Assembly (NCBI GenBank): GCA_017480195.1
Contig: JAFVBE010000012.1
Coordinates: 1 to 51,908, forward strand
Direction of reading: 5' to 3'
Length of the DNA stretch: 51,908 nt
Source: Lachnospiraceae bacterium
GTDB taxonomy: Bacteria; Bacillota; Clostridia; Lachnospirales; Lachnospiraceae
Shown here piece after piece: positions 14,031 through 18,491 of this stretch (position 1 is the first letter of the stretch; every line of letters starts with the position of its first letter). The translations under genes and the position numbers were made by a program. The notes under the pieces are model-generated. The model worked only from the letters and a program-made list of their open reading frames with translations. It made no database searches and had not been told where the DNA came from.

Positions 14031-14090
14031 ATTATTAGTTATATGTAATTTTCTCACAAAATTTCATCAAAATTTATGCTATCTAAAGAC

Positions 14091-14149
14091 ATCATAAACC
14101 CTTATAAATACTATATTTCTTAAAACTTACCAGCCTTAGCAGCCTCTTC
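14091..14149. repeat. Left attachment site (attL)
   Basis: It matches 17452-17510 with a few substitutions, including a 26-bp identical block at 14124-14149. Read on the minus strand it still encodes the C-terminus EEAAKAGKF and stop of the GGGtGRT protein, detached from the gene. Confidence 0.8.
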
Positions 14150-14184
14150 GATAAGCGCCTCCTTCCCTTTGCTTAAAGGTTTTA

Positions 14185-14212
14185 TTTGTTAATGCTGTCA
14201 AGCATTAACAAA
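14185..14212 (-). terminator. Perfect 12-bp hairpin after the Cro-like gene
   Basis: TTTGTTAATGCT pairs perfectly with AGCATTAACAAA around a GTCA loop, directly after the stop at 14213. It lacks a good T tract, so termination is plausible but unproven. Confidence 0.45.
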
Positions 14213-14458
14213 TTATGATATGGGTACTATATCATCGCATTTATGCGACTTCGTGATTAAAAAAATATCTGCTGCCTCATCAGGCTCGATCGAAAGTATT
14301 TCAACTAAATCATTAGCTTCCTTTATAGTTATAGGTTCTCCGTTGTTAGCCAATTTTCTATACAATGTTGAAGAACTTATACCTAATTTCTCAGCAACTT
14401 CAGCTATACTTTTCCCTGATTCTGCTATTTTTCCTTTCAGCTTACTTATATTCAACAC
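14213..14458 (-). CDS. XRE-family Cro-like regulator
   Basis: The 81-residue protein is mostly one helix-turn-helix: GKSIAEVAEKLGISSSTLYRKLANNG. It is divergent from the CI/LexA-like repressor across an operator array, the layout of a phage early switch. It probably binds the same sites and opposes the repressor. The start is GTG 14458 (GGAGG 4 nt away) or TTG 14455 (7 nt away); the spacing slightly favours TTG, which would make 80 residues. Nothing else follows it before the left attachment site. Confidence 0.8.
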   Translation of the reverse strand: MLNISKLKGKIAESGKSIAEVAEKLGISSSTLYRKLANNGEPITIKEANDLVEILSIEPDEAADIFLITKSHKCDDIVPIS

Positions 14459-14474
14459 TTATCCTCCTTTCCTT

Positions 14475-14592
14475 ATCGCATATATGCGATTTTATTGTAT
14501 TATAATCGCATATATGCGATATGTCAATATCAAAATTGCATTTTTGCAAAATATTTTTCATTTATGCGATTTTTTTATTGCAAATTTGCGAA
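14475..14592. promoter_or_regulatory. Five-site operator array between cro-like and CI-like genes
   Basis: Perfect palindromes ATCGCATATATGCGAT occur at 14475-14490 and 14505-14520. Weaker copies lie at 14536-14549 (TTGCATTTTTGCAA), 14555-14570 and 14578-14591 (TTGCAAATTTGCGA). The centres are about 30, 30, 20 and 22 bp apart, so sites fall on similar faces of the helix. Both divergent promoters must lie inside. Confidence 0.8.
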
Positions 14593-14629
14593 TTATATAT
14601 TAATATAGCTATTAAAGGCAGGTGATAAT

Positions 14630-15244
14630 ATGACTATAGGAAACAGAATTAAAAGTAGACGAATTGAACTCGGACTTTCAGTTGATGATTTAGCTAAAAG
14701 AATTAATAAAAACAGAGCAACAATATATAGATATGAAAAAGGTGATATTGAAAGTTTGCCAACCTCAATACTTGAGCCATTGGCAAAAGCACTTAATACC
14801 TCTCCTGAATATTTAATTGGTTGGGTTAAAACACCAATTAATAATAATGGCAGTAAGGTTGTTAATGTTCTCGGTCGTGTTTCAGCAGGTACTCCACTCG
14901 ATGCTATTGAGTATGTTATAGATACTGAGGAGATTACAGAGGAGCTTGCCAGTACCGGAAGCTTCTTCGGTTTGCAAATCAAAGGCGACAGTATGGAACC
15001 ACGCATATGTGATGGTGATGTCGTTATTGTTCGCCAGCAATCTGATGCTGAAAGCGGTGATATAGTAATCGCTATGGTTAATGGTGATGATGCTGTATGT
15101 AAGAGGCTCAAGAAATATGCTGGAGGTATAGCTCTTATATCTCTTAATACAAAATATGAACCTATGATGTTTAGTGAGGCAGAAATCGAAAGCAAACCTG
15201 TTAAGATATTAGGTAAAGTTGTGGAGCTAAGAGGTAAGTTTTAA
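14630..15244 (+). CDS. CI/LexA-like repressor with S24 peptidase domain
   Basis: The 204-residue protein has an N-terminal XRE helix-turn-helix (about residues 4-60, GLSVDDLAKRINKNRATIYRYE) and a C-terminal LexA-fold domain. GDSMEPRI carries the catalytic Ser, DAVCKRLKK the catalytic Lys, and VSAGTPL a likely Ala-Gly self-cleavage site near residue 88. Such repressors keep an element silent and are removed when RecA is activated by DNA damage. GGCAGGTGATAAT precedes the ATG. The upstream palindromes are its likely operators. Confidence 0.93.
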   Translation: MTIGNRIKSRRIELGLSVDDLAKRINKNRATIYRYEKGDIESLPTSILEPLAKALNTSPEYLIGWVKTPINNNGSKVVNVLGRVSAGTPLDAIEYVIDTEEITEELASTGSFFGLQIKGDSMEPRICDGDVVIVRQQSDAESGDIVIAMVNGDDAVCKRLKKYAGGIALISLNTKYEPMMFSEAEIESKPVKILGKVVELRGKF

Positions 15245-15344
15245 TAGTATATAATATTAAATTGTCTTGATATTTATAAAATTCTATATTAGTATAAAGT
15301 ATGCGCTCTATGAGTGTAAATTTATATTACTAAGGAGAATATAT

Positions 15345-15797
15345 ATGGGATTATTTGATATTTTATTTGATAAAACTGAGCCAGTTTATGAAAAAAAAGA
15401 AACATTTAAAGTGGTTGGAATCGACCACTATACTCAAGATATTGAAAGACTTAAGCGTATTAATCCTCTATACAGATGTGAGCCTTCTCTTATTCAAAAG
15501 ACAACATATGTTAATACAAAGATTTTTAAATATTATTTTACCAATTTTCCTGTCAAGCTGGTTGAGGAACCTAAAAATGAACATGATAAAAATGCAATTA
15601 AAGTTTTAATTTCTGGCCGCCATGTAGGATATATAGCTCGTGAGGATTGTTTGCACATAAAGAAGATAATGGCTGAATACCCTAAATATTTTGTTGATTC
15701 ATTTATAGGTGGTGGCGATTATAAAATTATTGAATCGAATGGAAGTGTATTTGATAATGACTATAAGATATCTATAAATATAACTATATATTATTAA
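15345..15797 (+). CDS. HIRAN-domain protein
   Basis: The 150-residue protein contains KLVEEPKNEHDKNAIKVLISGRHVGYIARE, here broken as the EPxNxHDxNAI block followed by the VGYIARE block. This is the HIRAN pattern, a domain known to bind 3' ends of single-stranded DNA at stalled forks in HLTF/Rad5 and found as a stand-alone protein in phages. No nuclease or helicase is attached. ATG 15345 has AAGGAG 7 nt upstream; the open frame extends to 15267 without a ribosome site. It follows the repressor and may be expressed in lysogeny, as cargo or in element DNA processing. Confidence 0.78.
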   Translation: MGLFDILFDKTEPVYEKKETFKVVGIDHYTQDIERLKRINPLYRCEPSLIQKTTYVNTKIFKYYFTNFPVKLVEEPKNEHDKNAIKVLISGRHVGYIAREDCLHIKKIMAEYPKYFVDSFIGGGDYKIIESNGSVFDNDYKISINITIYY

Positions 15798-15806
15798 AAC
15801 ATTGCT

Positions 15807-15835
15807 TTGATGCGTATTTATAATAATTTAATAGT
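15807..15835 (+). promoter_or_regulatory. Toxin promoter
   Basis: TTGATG (15807-15812) and AATAGT (15830-15835) are 17 bp apart. The following bases GTACTTAAC are the same as those after the antisense promoter, so the two promoters occupy matched places in an inverted repeat. Confidence 0.6.
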
Positions 15836-15899
15836 GTACTTAACCGGGCAGCCGAGGGGTGCAGCCATTCCGCTTTAGTCTTGGAGAGGAGTGGTGCTT

Positions 15900-15986
15900 A
15901 TGAGTTCATATGAGGAAATCATGGTGATTCTTACCATTGCATTACTTATTGTAGCTATTTTAAGTTTTACATCAAATAAGAAATAG
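15900..15986 (+). CDS. Putative holin-like toxin (Hol-Tox type), 28 residues
   Basis: The short protein reads MSSYEEIMVILTIALLIVAI then LSFTSNKK: an acidic start, one membrane helix (about residues 7-23) and a basic tail. This is the pattern of the Hol-Tox family of Firmicutes type I toxins. GAGAGGAG stands about 8 nt before the ATG. The toxin would insert in the cell's own membrane. The antisense RNA from the convergent promoter overlaps its 3' end and UTR and should be the antitoxin. It is carried by the integrative element, probably to stabilise it. Confidence 0.82.
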   Translation: MSSYEEIMVILTIALLIVAILSFTSNKK

Positions 15987-16073
15987 CACCTCAGCTCTGG
16001 TAAAGTCAGGTGCTATTCTTAGTAACTATTCTACAGAGCGGATAGGCTCCATCTATCGCTCGGCTGTCTTGTT
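15970..16073 (-). ncRNA. Antisense RNA antitoxin
   Basis: Transcription from the minus-strand promoter at 16080-16108 would start near 16073 and run into the hairpin AGCACCT/AGGTGCT (15984-16015), then TATTTCTTATTTG, giving about 100 nt. It covers the 3' end of the toxin mRNA. Because of the inverted repeat, its 5' end is also similar to the toxin mRNA's own 5' end. Ends are predicted, not measured. Confidence 0.65.
15984..16015. terminator. Shared hairpin of toxin mRNA and antisense RNA
   Basis: AGCACCT pairs with AGGTGCT. The T-rich tail (TATTTCTTATTT) lies on the minus strand, so it best serves the antisense RNA. The stem includes the toxin stop codon. Confidence 0.6.
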
Positions 16074-16079
16074 AAGTAC

Positions 16080-16108
16080 ATTATATGCTACAATCATATT
16101 TTTGTCAA
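16080..16108 (-). promoter_or_regulatory. Consensus antisense promoter
   Basis: Minus-strand TTGACA (16103-16108), 17 bp, then TATAAT (16080-16085): both boxes are full consensus. It points at the toxin gene and is clearly stronger than the toxin promoter, as expected for an antitoxin RNA. Confidence 0.8.
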
Positions 16109-16121
16109 ATCAAATGTAAAA

Positions 16122-16147
16122 CCGCCCTCTGCGCCAACAGAGGACGG
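16122..16147 (-). terminator. Hairpin upstream of antisense promoter
   Basis: CCG-CCCTCT pairs with AGAGG-CGG. Read on the minus strand a GTTTTA follows, so it may stop leftward transcription before the antisense promoter. Confidence 0.45.
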
Positions 16148-16162
16148 AATGCAACTATAAAT

Positions 16163-16253
16163 AACCAAGGTTAGATATAATCGCTCGTCAAACAAGCATA
16201 TTATATCAGATTTACCTTGGTTTAGCAACCGGGGTATTTTTATACCCTTTTTT
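16163..16253 (+). promoter_or_regulatory. Long inverted repeat and intrinsic terminator before the integrase
   Basis: AACCAAGGT..GATATAAT (16163-16181) pairs with ATTATATC..ACCTTGGTT (16200-16222). A terminator follows: GGGTATTTTTATACCC at 16232-16247 and six T at 16248-16253. The integrase ribosome site begins about 8 nt later. The arrangement looks like transcriptional attenuation, or a recombination-protein site followed by a terminator. Confidence 0.6.
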
Positions 16254-16273
16254 AAGAAAGAAGGATGATATAT

Positions 16274-17332
16274 ATGAGGTTACCAAATGGATATGGAAGT
16301 GTGTATAAACTATCGGGAAAGCGACATAATCCATATATAGCACGTAAAACTATCGGATGGCTTTTGGATGACGAGTCTGGCACATCAAAACAACAGTATG
16401 TAACTATAGGATATTATCCAACAAGAGCTGCTGCCCTTACTGCCCTTTCCAACTACAATGAAAATCCATACGATATCAAAGTTAATTCAATTACCTTTTC
16501 AGAGGTTTATGAAAAATGGTCCGAAGAACACTTTGAAAATATCGTGAGCAGTGCAAGAAGAACATGGATAAGTGCCTTTAATCACTCGAAACCTCTACAC
16601 AATATGCGTATGCGTGACATAAGACCTAATCACATGGAAGAAACCATCAAACATGCTGATGTGGGTTCAAGCACCAAGCAACGTATGAAAAGTCTGTATA
16701 ATATGATTTATAAGTATTGTCTTAAATATGACATATGTGATAAAAATTACGCTGCCCTTTGTGAAAGAGTAAAAGATGATAAGCCCACTATTATACGTAT
16801 TCCATATGCTGATAACGAAGTACAGATATTATGGGATAACTTAGACTTTCCATTTGTTGATATGGTAATTATCGGAATATATTCCGGATGGCGTCCTCAA
16901 GAGCTCACCACGCTTAAACTCTCAGATGTGGATTTAAAAAATCATACCATATTCGGAGGGCTTAAGACTGAAGCAGGGCGTAACAGATGCGTTCCAATAC
17001 ATCATATTATATATGACCTTGTTAAGATTAATTACGAAAAAGCCATTGATTTGAAGAGTCCTTATCTATTTAATGATATAAATAGCAAACATGATGTGGC
17101 GCTTACATATGATAAATACCGGAGAAGATTTGAAAAGATTAATAAAATGTTTGAGCAAATTCACCGCCCACATGATACAAGACACACATTTATCACAAAA
17201 GCAAAAGAAGCAGGTGTAAATGAACATATACTTAAGCTTATGGTAGGACATGCAGTAACCGATATTACAGAAAAGGTATATACCCACAGAACAATAGAAG
17301 AACTAAAAAAAGAGATAGAAAAAATCACATAA
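16274..17332 (+). CDS. int: Tyrosine recombinase (integrase)
   Basis: The 352-residue protein has an N-terminal DNA-binding part typical of Tn916/phage-type integrases (LPNGYGSVYKLSGKRHNP) and a core-binding domain. Its catalytic domain carries Arg in SGWRPQELTTL, Lys after GGLKTEAGR, HDTRHTF (His-x-x-Arg), VGHAV (His) and the nucleophile Tyr in EKVYTHRT. It would insert and remove the element between the 59-bp repeats. ATG 16274 is chosen because AAGGA is 8 nt upstream; an in-frame ATG at 16265 overlaps that site. It lies beside the right attachment site, as is usual. No excisionase was identified. Confidence 0.94.
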   Translation: MRLPNGYGSVYKLSGKRHNPYIARKTIGWLLDDESGTSKQQYVTIGYYPTRAAALTALSNYNENPYDIKVNSITFSEVYEKWSEEHFENIVSSARRTWISAFNHSKPLHNMRMRDIRPNHMEETIKHADVGSSTKQRMKSLYNMIYKYCLKYDICDKNYAALCERVKDDKPTIIRIPYADNEVQILWDNLDFPFVDMVIIGIYSGWRPQELTTLKLSDVDLKNHTIFGGLKTEAGRNRCVPIHHIIYDLVKINYEKAIDLKSPYLFNDINSKHDVALTYDKYRRRFEKINKMFEQIHRPHDTRHTFITKAKEAGVNEHILKLMVGHAVTDITEKVYTHRTIEELKKEIEKIT

Positions 17333-17336
17333 AATC

Positions 17337-17370
17337 AGAGGGTAACAGAACTAAATCCGTTACCCTCTTT
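17337..17370. terminator. Terminator between integrase and GGGtGRT gene
   Basis: AGAGGGTAAC pairs with GTTACCCTCT, with a TTT tail on plus and GATTTTA on minus. It replaces the GGGtGRT gene's original terminator, which the element has displaced. Confidence 0.75.
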
Positions 17371-17382
17371 GCTGTTATAATT

Positions 17383-17412
17383 TGTTAGTTGTGTGTTAGT
17401 TATGTGTTAGTT
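17383..17412. repeat. Three TGTTAGTT direct repeats, 11-bp period
   Basis: Copies at 17383-17390, 17394-17401 and 17405-17412. Their place just inside the right attachment site suggests integrase arm-binding sites. Confidence 0.6.
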
Positions 17413-17451
17413 ACGCATAAAATTTCACCTATTTTTATACAACCTAACAAT

Positions 17452-17510
17452 ATCACAAACCCTTATAAATACTATATCTCTTAGAACTTACCAGCCTTAG
17501 CAGCCTCTTC
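17452..17510. repeat. Right attachment site (attR)
   Basis: It contains the last nine codons and stop of the GGGtGRT gene. It matches 14091-14149. The gene stays intact because the element supplied or kept the same 3' end. Confidence 0.8.
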
Positions 17511-18491
17511 TATAGATACTGCAACTGCAACAGTCATACCAACCATAGGGTTGTTACCTGCACCGATAAGTCCCATCATTTCTACATGAGCAGGAACTGA
17601 TGATGAACCTGCGAACTGTGCATCTGAGTGCATACGTCCTAAGGTATCAGTCATACCGTATGAAGCAGGACCTGCTGCCATATTATCAGGGTGAAGTGTA
17701 CGACCTGTACCACCACCTGAAGCTACTGAGAAGTACTTCTTGCCCTTCTCATTACATTCCTTCTTGTATGTACCTGCTACAGGATGTTGGAATCTGGTTG
17801 GGTTAGTTGAGTTACCTGTGATTGATACATCAACGCCTTCCTTCCACATAATTGCAACGCCCTCTGGTACTGAGTTAGCACCATAACAGTTTACCTTAGC
17901 ACGAAGCCCCTCTGAATAAGACTTACGTGAAATTTCTTTAACTTCATTAGTGTATGGATCATACTCAGTCTCAACAAATGTAAATCCGTTAATACGTGAG
18001 ATAATCTGTGCAGCATCCTTACCTAAACCATTAAGGATAACTCTAAGAGGCTTCTGACGAACCTTGTTAGCCTTCTCAGCGATACCGATTGCGCCCTCTG
18101 CTGCTGCAAATGACTCATGACCTGCAAGGAATGCAAAACACTCAGTCTCTTCCTCAAGCAACATCTTACCTAAGTTACCATGTCCAAGACCAACCTTACG
18201 GGTATCTGCAACTGAGCCCGGTATACAGAAAGACTGAAGTCCCTCTCCGATTGCTGCCGCTGCGTCTGCTGCTCTTCTGCAGCCCTTCTTGATTGCTATT
18301 GCTGCACCTACAGTATAAGCCCAGCATGCATTTTCAAAACAGATAGGCTGAATGCCCTTTATCTGATTGTATACATCTAAACCAGCATCCTTTGTAATCT
18401 TCTCTGCTTCTTCTATAGAGGAGATACCATAGCTGTTTAATACTTTATTTATCTGATCAATTCTTCTTTCATATGATTCGAATAATGCCAT
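17481..18491 (-). CDS. GGGtGRT protein
   Basis: The 336-residue protein carries the name-giving GGGTGRT motif in SVASGGGTGRTLHPDNMAAG. It is rich in Gly and Ala with several conserved Cys and His (ICFENACW, GHGNLGKML, HVEMMGLIGAGNNPM). The family is conserved in anaerobes, nearly always next to a NifU-like protein, and is thought to be linked to iron-sulfur metabolism; the reaction is unknown. Here the NifU-like gene is 18 nt upstream, and AAGGAGG precedes ATG 18491, so they form an operon. The 3' end is the attachment site of the integrative element but the frame is complete. Confidence 0.92.
   Translation of the reverse strand: MALFESYERRIDQINKVLNSYGISSIEEAEKITKDAGLDVYNQIKGIQPICFENACWAYTVGAAIAIKKGCRRAADAAAAIGEGLQSFCIPGSVADTRKVGLGHGNLGKMLLEEETECFAFLAGHESFAAAEGAIGIAEKANKVRQKPLRVILNGLGKDAAQIISRINGFTFVETEYDPYTNEVKEISRKSYSEGLRAKVNCYGANSVPEGVAIMWKEGVDVSITGNSTNPTRFQHPVAGTYKKECNEKGKKYFSVASGGGTGRTLHPDNMAAGPASYGMTDTLGRMHSDAQFAGSSSVPAHVEMMGLIGAGNNPMVGMTVAVAVSIEEAAKAGKF

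Follow-up and report, generated by a model that had tools for sequence, protein, structure and literature searches.

The 51,908-nucleotide (nt) contig JAFVBE010000012.1 of a Lachnospiraceae bacterium (GenBank assembly GCA_017480195.1), analysed as a whole and called the window here, carries at 15807–16108 a compact locus that is very probably a type I toxin-antitoxin system of the TxpA/BsrG type, a kind already known from Bacillus prophages. In the reading that we favour, with a probability of about 0.68, the locus is BsrG-like and its antisense RNA opens a helix of 21 base pairs (bp) that closes the toxin mRNA. Comparison of related sequences strongly supports pairing of the two ends of this mRNA with each other. 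A preliminary description of the locus, made from its sequence, had predicted a type I toxin-antitoxin locus, and this prediction is well supported by the anatomy of the locus and by its relatives.

The toxin open reading frame (ORF) of 28 codons was found at 15900–15986 on the plus strand, and its product is the Hol_Tox-like peptide that had been described; it is also TxpA/BsrG-like, with a single hydrophobic segment and a lysine tail. The sequence GGAGAGGAG stands ahead of the ORF, the Shine-Dalgarno (SD) region lies at 15883–15894 (plus strand), and a hairpin at 15982–16017 overlaps the ORF end. The peptide scored 22.0 bits against Hol_Tox in Pfam (E 1.4e-4; cut-off 23.3), the sole family reported at E ≤ 1; no Fst/Ldr-type toxin was matched, and we assume that an Fst model is present in Pfam. 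Hol_Tox was matched at E ≤ 0.01 by 12 of 22 related peptides, the window's included, in a set in which one peptide was typed with one wrong residue. The antisense promoter TTGACA-17-TATAAT (16080–16108, minus strand), located downstream of the ORF and directed at it, agrees with the consensus at all 12 bases, as had been stated. It is the only one of seven promoter-like sites in 1.3 kilobases (kb) to do so, their number being that expected from shuffled sequence (6.9), and at the DNA level it recurs, near consensus, behind the ORF in relatives. The proposed toxin promoter TTGATG-17-AATAGT (15807–15835, plus strand) is present as a putative, weak site that stays under the threshold of the consensus promoter scan; in related loci the toxin -10 box is recognisable by eye and the -35 box is not conserved. 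On the minus strand, a strong hairpin resembling a terminator (16122–16147; 11 pairs, then TTTT) lies directly upstream of the antisense promoter and would insulate the antisense RNA from transcription entering from the right.

A repeat-finding tool reported an inverted repeat of 26 nt (85%) in the locus. The first 21 nt of the two predicted RNAs are identical at 18 positions, so nearly the same sequence does follow both promoters, and the likeness of the toxin and antisense leaders, 19.4 against a shuffled mean of 8.5, was reached in 0 of 1000 shuffles. The promoters themselves, which had been described as matched within the inverted repeat, are not part of it: the symmetry begins behind the -10 boxes and leaves the -35 and spacer regions unmatched. 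The mirrored ends are a property of the transcripts, not of the promoters. The 5′ arm (box A; 15836–15856, plus strand) and the 3′ arm (16059–16079, plus strand; the complement of the antisense 5′ end) form the 21-bp helix that closes the toxin mRNA, if this mRNA runs through the antisense start.

Covariation of the two arms was examined in related loci. A loose antisense-side pattern gave 153 distinct sites in the loci fetched, of which 130 were accompanied by an ORF that is short and hydrophobic, has a ribosome site and is toxin-like in size and make-up, and 23 lacked a toxin ORF under the rule applied. After removal of near-copies 105 loci were left, of which 101 were used (L229, L238, L091 and L224 were omitted as mis-called). 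In these, 1883 of 2084 cells of the closing helix pair (90.4%), single positions occur as A-U, G-C or G-U and as C-G, U-G or U-A, and 18.6 pairs form with a locus's own arm against 17.8 with the arms of other loci (0/5000 permutations). Among the transcripts of a divergent set (32 of 35 loci; L158, L209 and L240 omitted for odd length or start), 90.9% of the closing helix is paired, compared with 84.6% when shuffled and 30–45% when the arms are slid; 10 of the 21 pairs are changed on both sides, and double-changed cells number 61 against 19.6 in shuffles (0/500). The preliminary description had held that the toxin mRNA ends can pair and had proposed folding of the predicted transcripts as a check. 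The pairing is strongly supported by the covariation, and in predicted folds the closing helix has a mean pairing probability of 0.85, with values above 0.5 in 98 of 99 loci (leader pairing and SD exposure were likewise computed for 99 of the 101 loci). In loci taken from the protein profile alone (67 of 70 places from the Hol_Tox search, 47 after near-copy removal), the toxin leader resembled its own antisense leader (13.0) more than those of other loci (9.1; 0/10000). The Rfam model BsrG (RF01412) matched the toxin strand over its full length at 15837–16102 (30.3 bits, E 1.5e-5), and the outermost helix of the model corresponds to the inverted repeat of the window. Six of 20 related loci gave a BsrG match at the toxin, on the toxin strand, at E ≤ 0.1 (seven matches, all below the gathering score).

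Conservation and covariation extend from the closing helix to the SD hairpin, the internal hairpin and the inner stem of SL1. Box B of the toxin leader (15853–15862, plus strand) is predicted to pair with the sequence directly behind the stop codon, as in the second long-range helix of BsrG, and does so better with its own post-stop region (-18.0) than with those of other loci (-16.2; 0/5000 permutations, 99 loci). Box C, the anti-SD strand of the leader (15864–15876, plus strand), has the SD and the 3′ region as alternative predicted partners; toxin leader and SD reach -17.3 within a locus and -14.0 between loci (0/5000, 99 loci), and the box C helices (helices 2–4) are 76–82% paired, all 11 pairs being double-changed in some sequence. 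The internal hairpin after the stop codon (15982–16017; helix 5, not assigned to a strand) has nine pairs, 91.8% paired and six double-changed, and is presumed to be the antisense terminator and an internal structure in the toxin mRNA. From promoter and hairpin, an antisense RNA of ~110 nt (15970–16079, minus strand) is predicted as the antitoxin, and its overlap with the toxin RNA, deduced from the DNA, would be ~110 nt; in TxpA/BsrG-type systems the 3′ overlap is about 100–140 nt. SL1 (16032–16067, minus strand), the 5′ hairpin of the antisense RNA and on the plus strand a 3′ hairpin of the toxin mRNA, has an inner stem that is supported by pair counts, being 99.4% paired with four of five pairs changed on both sides, and an outer stem that is 85% paired with one of five. 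Taken jointly, the 46 named pairs form in 89.0% of cases, compared with 79.5% in shuffles and 36–51% when slid, and 31 of the 46 are double-changed.

The simplest account of this arrangement is likely the mechanism reported for bsrG/SR4. The toxin mRNA, at least ~245 nt long (from 15836 to 16079 or beyond), would be closed end to end and held by further long-range pairs. The strong convergent promoter would produce the ~110-nt antisense RNA, a full complement of the mRNA 3′ part, and pairing would probably begin at the internal hairpin and then proceed into the 3′ arm. There the antisense RNA, as a perfect complement, would displace the mRNA's own 5′ strand, which contains mismatches and wobbles; in the window, the 3′ arm is predicted to be bound by its own 5′ arm at -31.7 and by the antisense arm at -36.5 kcal/mol. 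Where the two leaders differ, the difference mostly leaves a G-U wobble within the toxin mRNA (96 against 34 and 70 against 10 cells, counted in 34 hand-listed of the 47 profile loci plus 22 pairs; and 247 against 32 cells). The freed leader would close box C over the SD sequence, and the mRNA:antisense duplex would be exposed to RNase III. Predicted SD exposure is 0.33 in the free mRNA and 0.23 when the antisense-covered 3′ part is unavailable, being lower in 85 of 99 loci. Shuffled 3′ parts (three shuffles per locus) also give 0.23, the real value being higher in 84 of 99, and because this is the same value as with the 3′ part unavailable, the real 3′ part appears to loosen the SD hairpin. 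We propose the closing helix as the physical path for such an effect at a distance.

The preliminary description had further suggested that, through the symmetry, one antisense RNA might act at both ends of the toxin mRNA. As written this is unsupported, because the antisense RNA has at its 5′ end the same sequence as the toxin mRNA and not its complement. A second-order form of the idea, in which antisense box C pairs with the toxin SD in trans, is possible; the better reading is that the antisense RNA, by binding the 3′ end, sets the 5′ end free. A more specific form of the latter, which we offer tentatively as one possibility, is that in a very large group of gut-bacterial loci the antitoxin mimics the 5′ end of its target. 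Starting from the base of the closing helix, it would invade this helix by strand displacement, so that box C would leave the 3′ region and pair with the SD. If true, the toxin mRNA would work as a switch between two states, set at one end and read out at the other, and this would explain the distant translational silencing by 3′-binding antitoxins such as SR4.

Several observations weigh against the opening of a closing helix in a BsrG-like locus. The Hol_Tox score of the window peptide is slightly short of the cut-off, and the genome-wide Hol_Tox search at E ≤ 0.001 missed the window's own genome because this peptide is slightly too weak. The BsrG score of 30.3 lies under the gathering score (55), 14 of the 20 related loci lacked a BsrG match at E ≤ 0.1, and neither the window nor these 20 loci reached the Rfam gathering score of any toxin or antitoxin RNA. 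The antisense-side pattern by which the 101 loci were selected fixes part of the 3′ arm, though not the 5′ arm. Further pair types are no more numerous in the closing helix than shuffles allow (62/500), and two columns of this helix are mostly unpaired (16/31 and 22/32 in the divergent set; 54 and 78 of 99 in the larger set). The wobble bias is weak by columns (11 against 8), its cells sharing ancestry, and those A-boxes of the profile loci that were anchored by eye do not show it (5 against 6). The predicted change in SD exposure is modest. SR5 and RatA bind similarly in B. subtilis with no change at the SD, according to PMC7430163, so the SD switch need not hold here and is meant conditionally. 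No convincing terminator was found past 16079 in the window; that the toxin mRNA reaches the 3′ arm is therefore something we infer, and its 3′ end is the weakest point of the account.

The alternative that survives best, though we consider it unlikely, is a par/Fst-like arrangement in which both RNAs stop at the internal hairpin (15982–16017) and overlap by ~45 nt, antisense box C acts on the SD as pAD1 RNA II does through its direct repeats, and the terminal inverted repeat is a by-product of common ancestry of the leaders. The conserved internal hairpin and the par layout as described in PMC7472228 agree with it. So does the pairing of antisense leader and toxin SD in trans, which is locus-specific in the window subfamily (own -15.3, others -14.2; 0/5000 permutations, 99 loci; 26/5000 in a second comparison). 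This specificity is lost in the wider Hol_Tox sets (1947/5000 with 37 loci; p 0.24 with 41 of the 47 loci, L027, L031, L114, L119, L121 and L122 being omitted by hand for want of a leader match). The covarying closing helix suggests, against such an arrangement, that the toxin mRNA runs on past the internal hairpin; the leader differences favour wobbles in an mRNA that reaches the 3′ arm, weakly so by columns, and the best-matching RNA family, BsrG, has the closing helix.

That the ORF encodes a harmless small membrane peptide regulated by antisense, rather than a toxin, would fit its sub-threshold Hol_Tox score and is improbable given the family membership of its relatives, the strong antisense promoter and a mobile-element context such as that reported for similar B. 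subtilis toxins (PMC6563280, PMC4147584). A role of the symmetry in DNA, through a regulator shared by both start sites or through repeats that exchange sequence or invert the segment, is highly improbable, as the matched sequence varies between loci and agrees within each locus, unlike an operator, the -35 and spacer regions are not matched, and the systematic one-directional leader differences speak against homogenisation; no search was made for an inverted orientation.

Relatives of the locus are frequent. The window's genome contains four more DNA matches to it, of which three cluster on a single contig, and matches were obtained in 24 of 145 genomes searched, this one among them; the genome-wide Hol_Tox profile search gave a match in 52 of 195 genomes. 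In the GTDB collection, 102 stretches contain the antisense-start pattern TATAATRTRCTTAACAAGACAGYCGR, which is also present in 17 viral contigs; one relative, locus L193, belongs to Mediterraneibacter agrestimuris. Among the 80 stretches listed of the 102, Lachnospiraceae are named in 33 titles, and many other titles carry Blautia, Mediterraneibacter, Eisenbergiella or Fusicatenibacter, which we take to be genera of this family; the 80 also include two Oscillospiraceae, one Succiniclasticum and one Clostridiaceae. Locus L064 (G000:C10:2000-6500), in the same genome, has three modules within ~1 kb, L045 has two modules and L039 two toxin ORFs. The two toxin types at L064 (MVTYNDLF... and MSIYETLM...) have near-identical antisense starts and differ in box C and SL1, which suggests that the stems keep modules specific.

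The locus lies between two copies of a 119-nt direct repeat (14035–14153 and 17396–17514, 83% identical), which may be related to attachment sites, and 14035–17514 is a small integrated element of ~3.4 kb. Besides the toxin-antitoxin locus, the repeats bracket a LexA/CI-like S24 repressor, a HIRAN-domain gene, a tyrosine integrase and a small gene with a weak excisionase- or antidote-like match below the cut-off. Within 14235–14591, perfect palindromes TCGCATATATGCGA stand at 14476 and 14506 between the two divergent regulators, with weaker copies at 14556 and 14578 (three mismatches) and at 14235 (one mismatch, inside the first gene); up to three mismatches allowed, the window as a whole has 12 matches against 3.4 in shuffles. 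Judged from the DNA, the repressor of the element probably has its operators in these palindromes. A 95% identical copy of the locus (L066, G013:C56:53500-60500) is present in a genome from the window's genus. Near it lies DNA like the end of the repressor gene with the gap behind it (15151–15358; 82%), and further away are repressor-like (70%) and integrase-like (72%) stretches, as if elements of the window's type were stacked there.

These results extend the BsrG/TxpA type, characterised in Bacillus, to Lachnospiraceae, such loci being frequent in the genomes searched. The comparative data resolve the helices to single base pairs and point to mutants that would show how a start site comes under the control of an antisense RNA bound ~180 nt away, at the 3′ end. 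Clostridium bolteae is a lachnospiraceous species. A search of 2010, cited in PMC6563280, predicted TxpA-like sequences in the species then so called, and the kind of locus was therefore already known.

The symmetry is also found in known loci. That of bsrG in phage SPbeta, which we take to be correctly identified by a peptide that matched the SPbeta records exactly, has CTGTACATAAAG...GCTC near the 5′ end and a near complement at the 3′ end, with 2 of 300 shuffles as good. A second SPbeta-type locus, whose peptide is presumably BsrE-like, has the same symmetry (1/300), and a Streptococcus satellite phage locus reached 15.5 on the leader-likeness measure, a value given without shuffle comparison. 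The par/Fst system of pAD1 (RNA I/RNA II) shares convergent promoters, a common hairpin and an SD-sequestering 5′ stem-loop (PMC7472228); it differs in that its second pairing is through direct repeats, whereas the repeat here is inverted and forms a helix within the mRNA, and in that no relationship of the toxins emerged, Hol_Tox being the sole Pfam family matched at E ≤ 1. With aapA/IsoA and hok/Sok the locus shares a long-distance interaction of 5′ and 3′ ends in the toxin mRNA; there, it is this interaction that masks the SD, and translation is switched on by trimming of the 3′ end (PMC6733600), whereas the predicted free form here exposes the SD slightly more. Closer is txpA/RatA of the B. 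subtilis skin element, with convergent RNAs (predicted here), a 3′ overlap of ~120 nt and control by RNase III (PMC3531473). TxpA, of 59 amino acids, is set apart by its description, as is RatA, which leaves the SD region unchanged (PMC7430163). Closest are bsrG/SR4 and bsrE/SR5, which share a Hol_Tox-type peptide (sub-threshold here), a convergent antisense promoter stronger than that of the toxin (judged here from DNA) and, by prediction for the window, an antisense RNA that is the complement of the toxin mRNA in its 3′ part, the closing helix, the second helix after the stop codon and the SD hairpin. In bsrG/SR4, the SR4 promoter is 6–10 times stronger than that of bsrG and SR4 binding lengthens the SD stem from 4 to 8 bp (PMC7430163); the antisense RNA binds the 3′ part of the mRNA, and RNase III can cut (PMC7430163, PMC4147584). 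SR4 has 180 nt and bsrG mRNA 294 nt (PMC7430163), compared with ~110 nt predicted for the antisense RNA here, and in bsrG the closing helix is followed by a hairpin and T run, where the window has only a weak hairpin. Unlike in bsrG/SR4, the predicted antisense RNA of the window begins precisely where the closing helix ends, so that both RNAs would open with nearly the same sequence. What is added here is this member of the type, its compact layout in which both RNAs would start from the closing helix, and the covariation.
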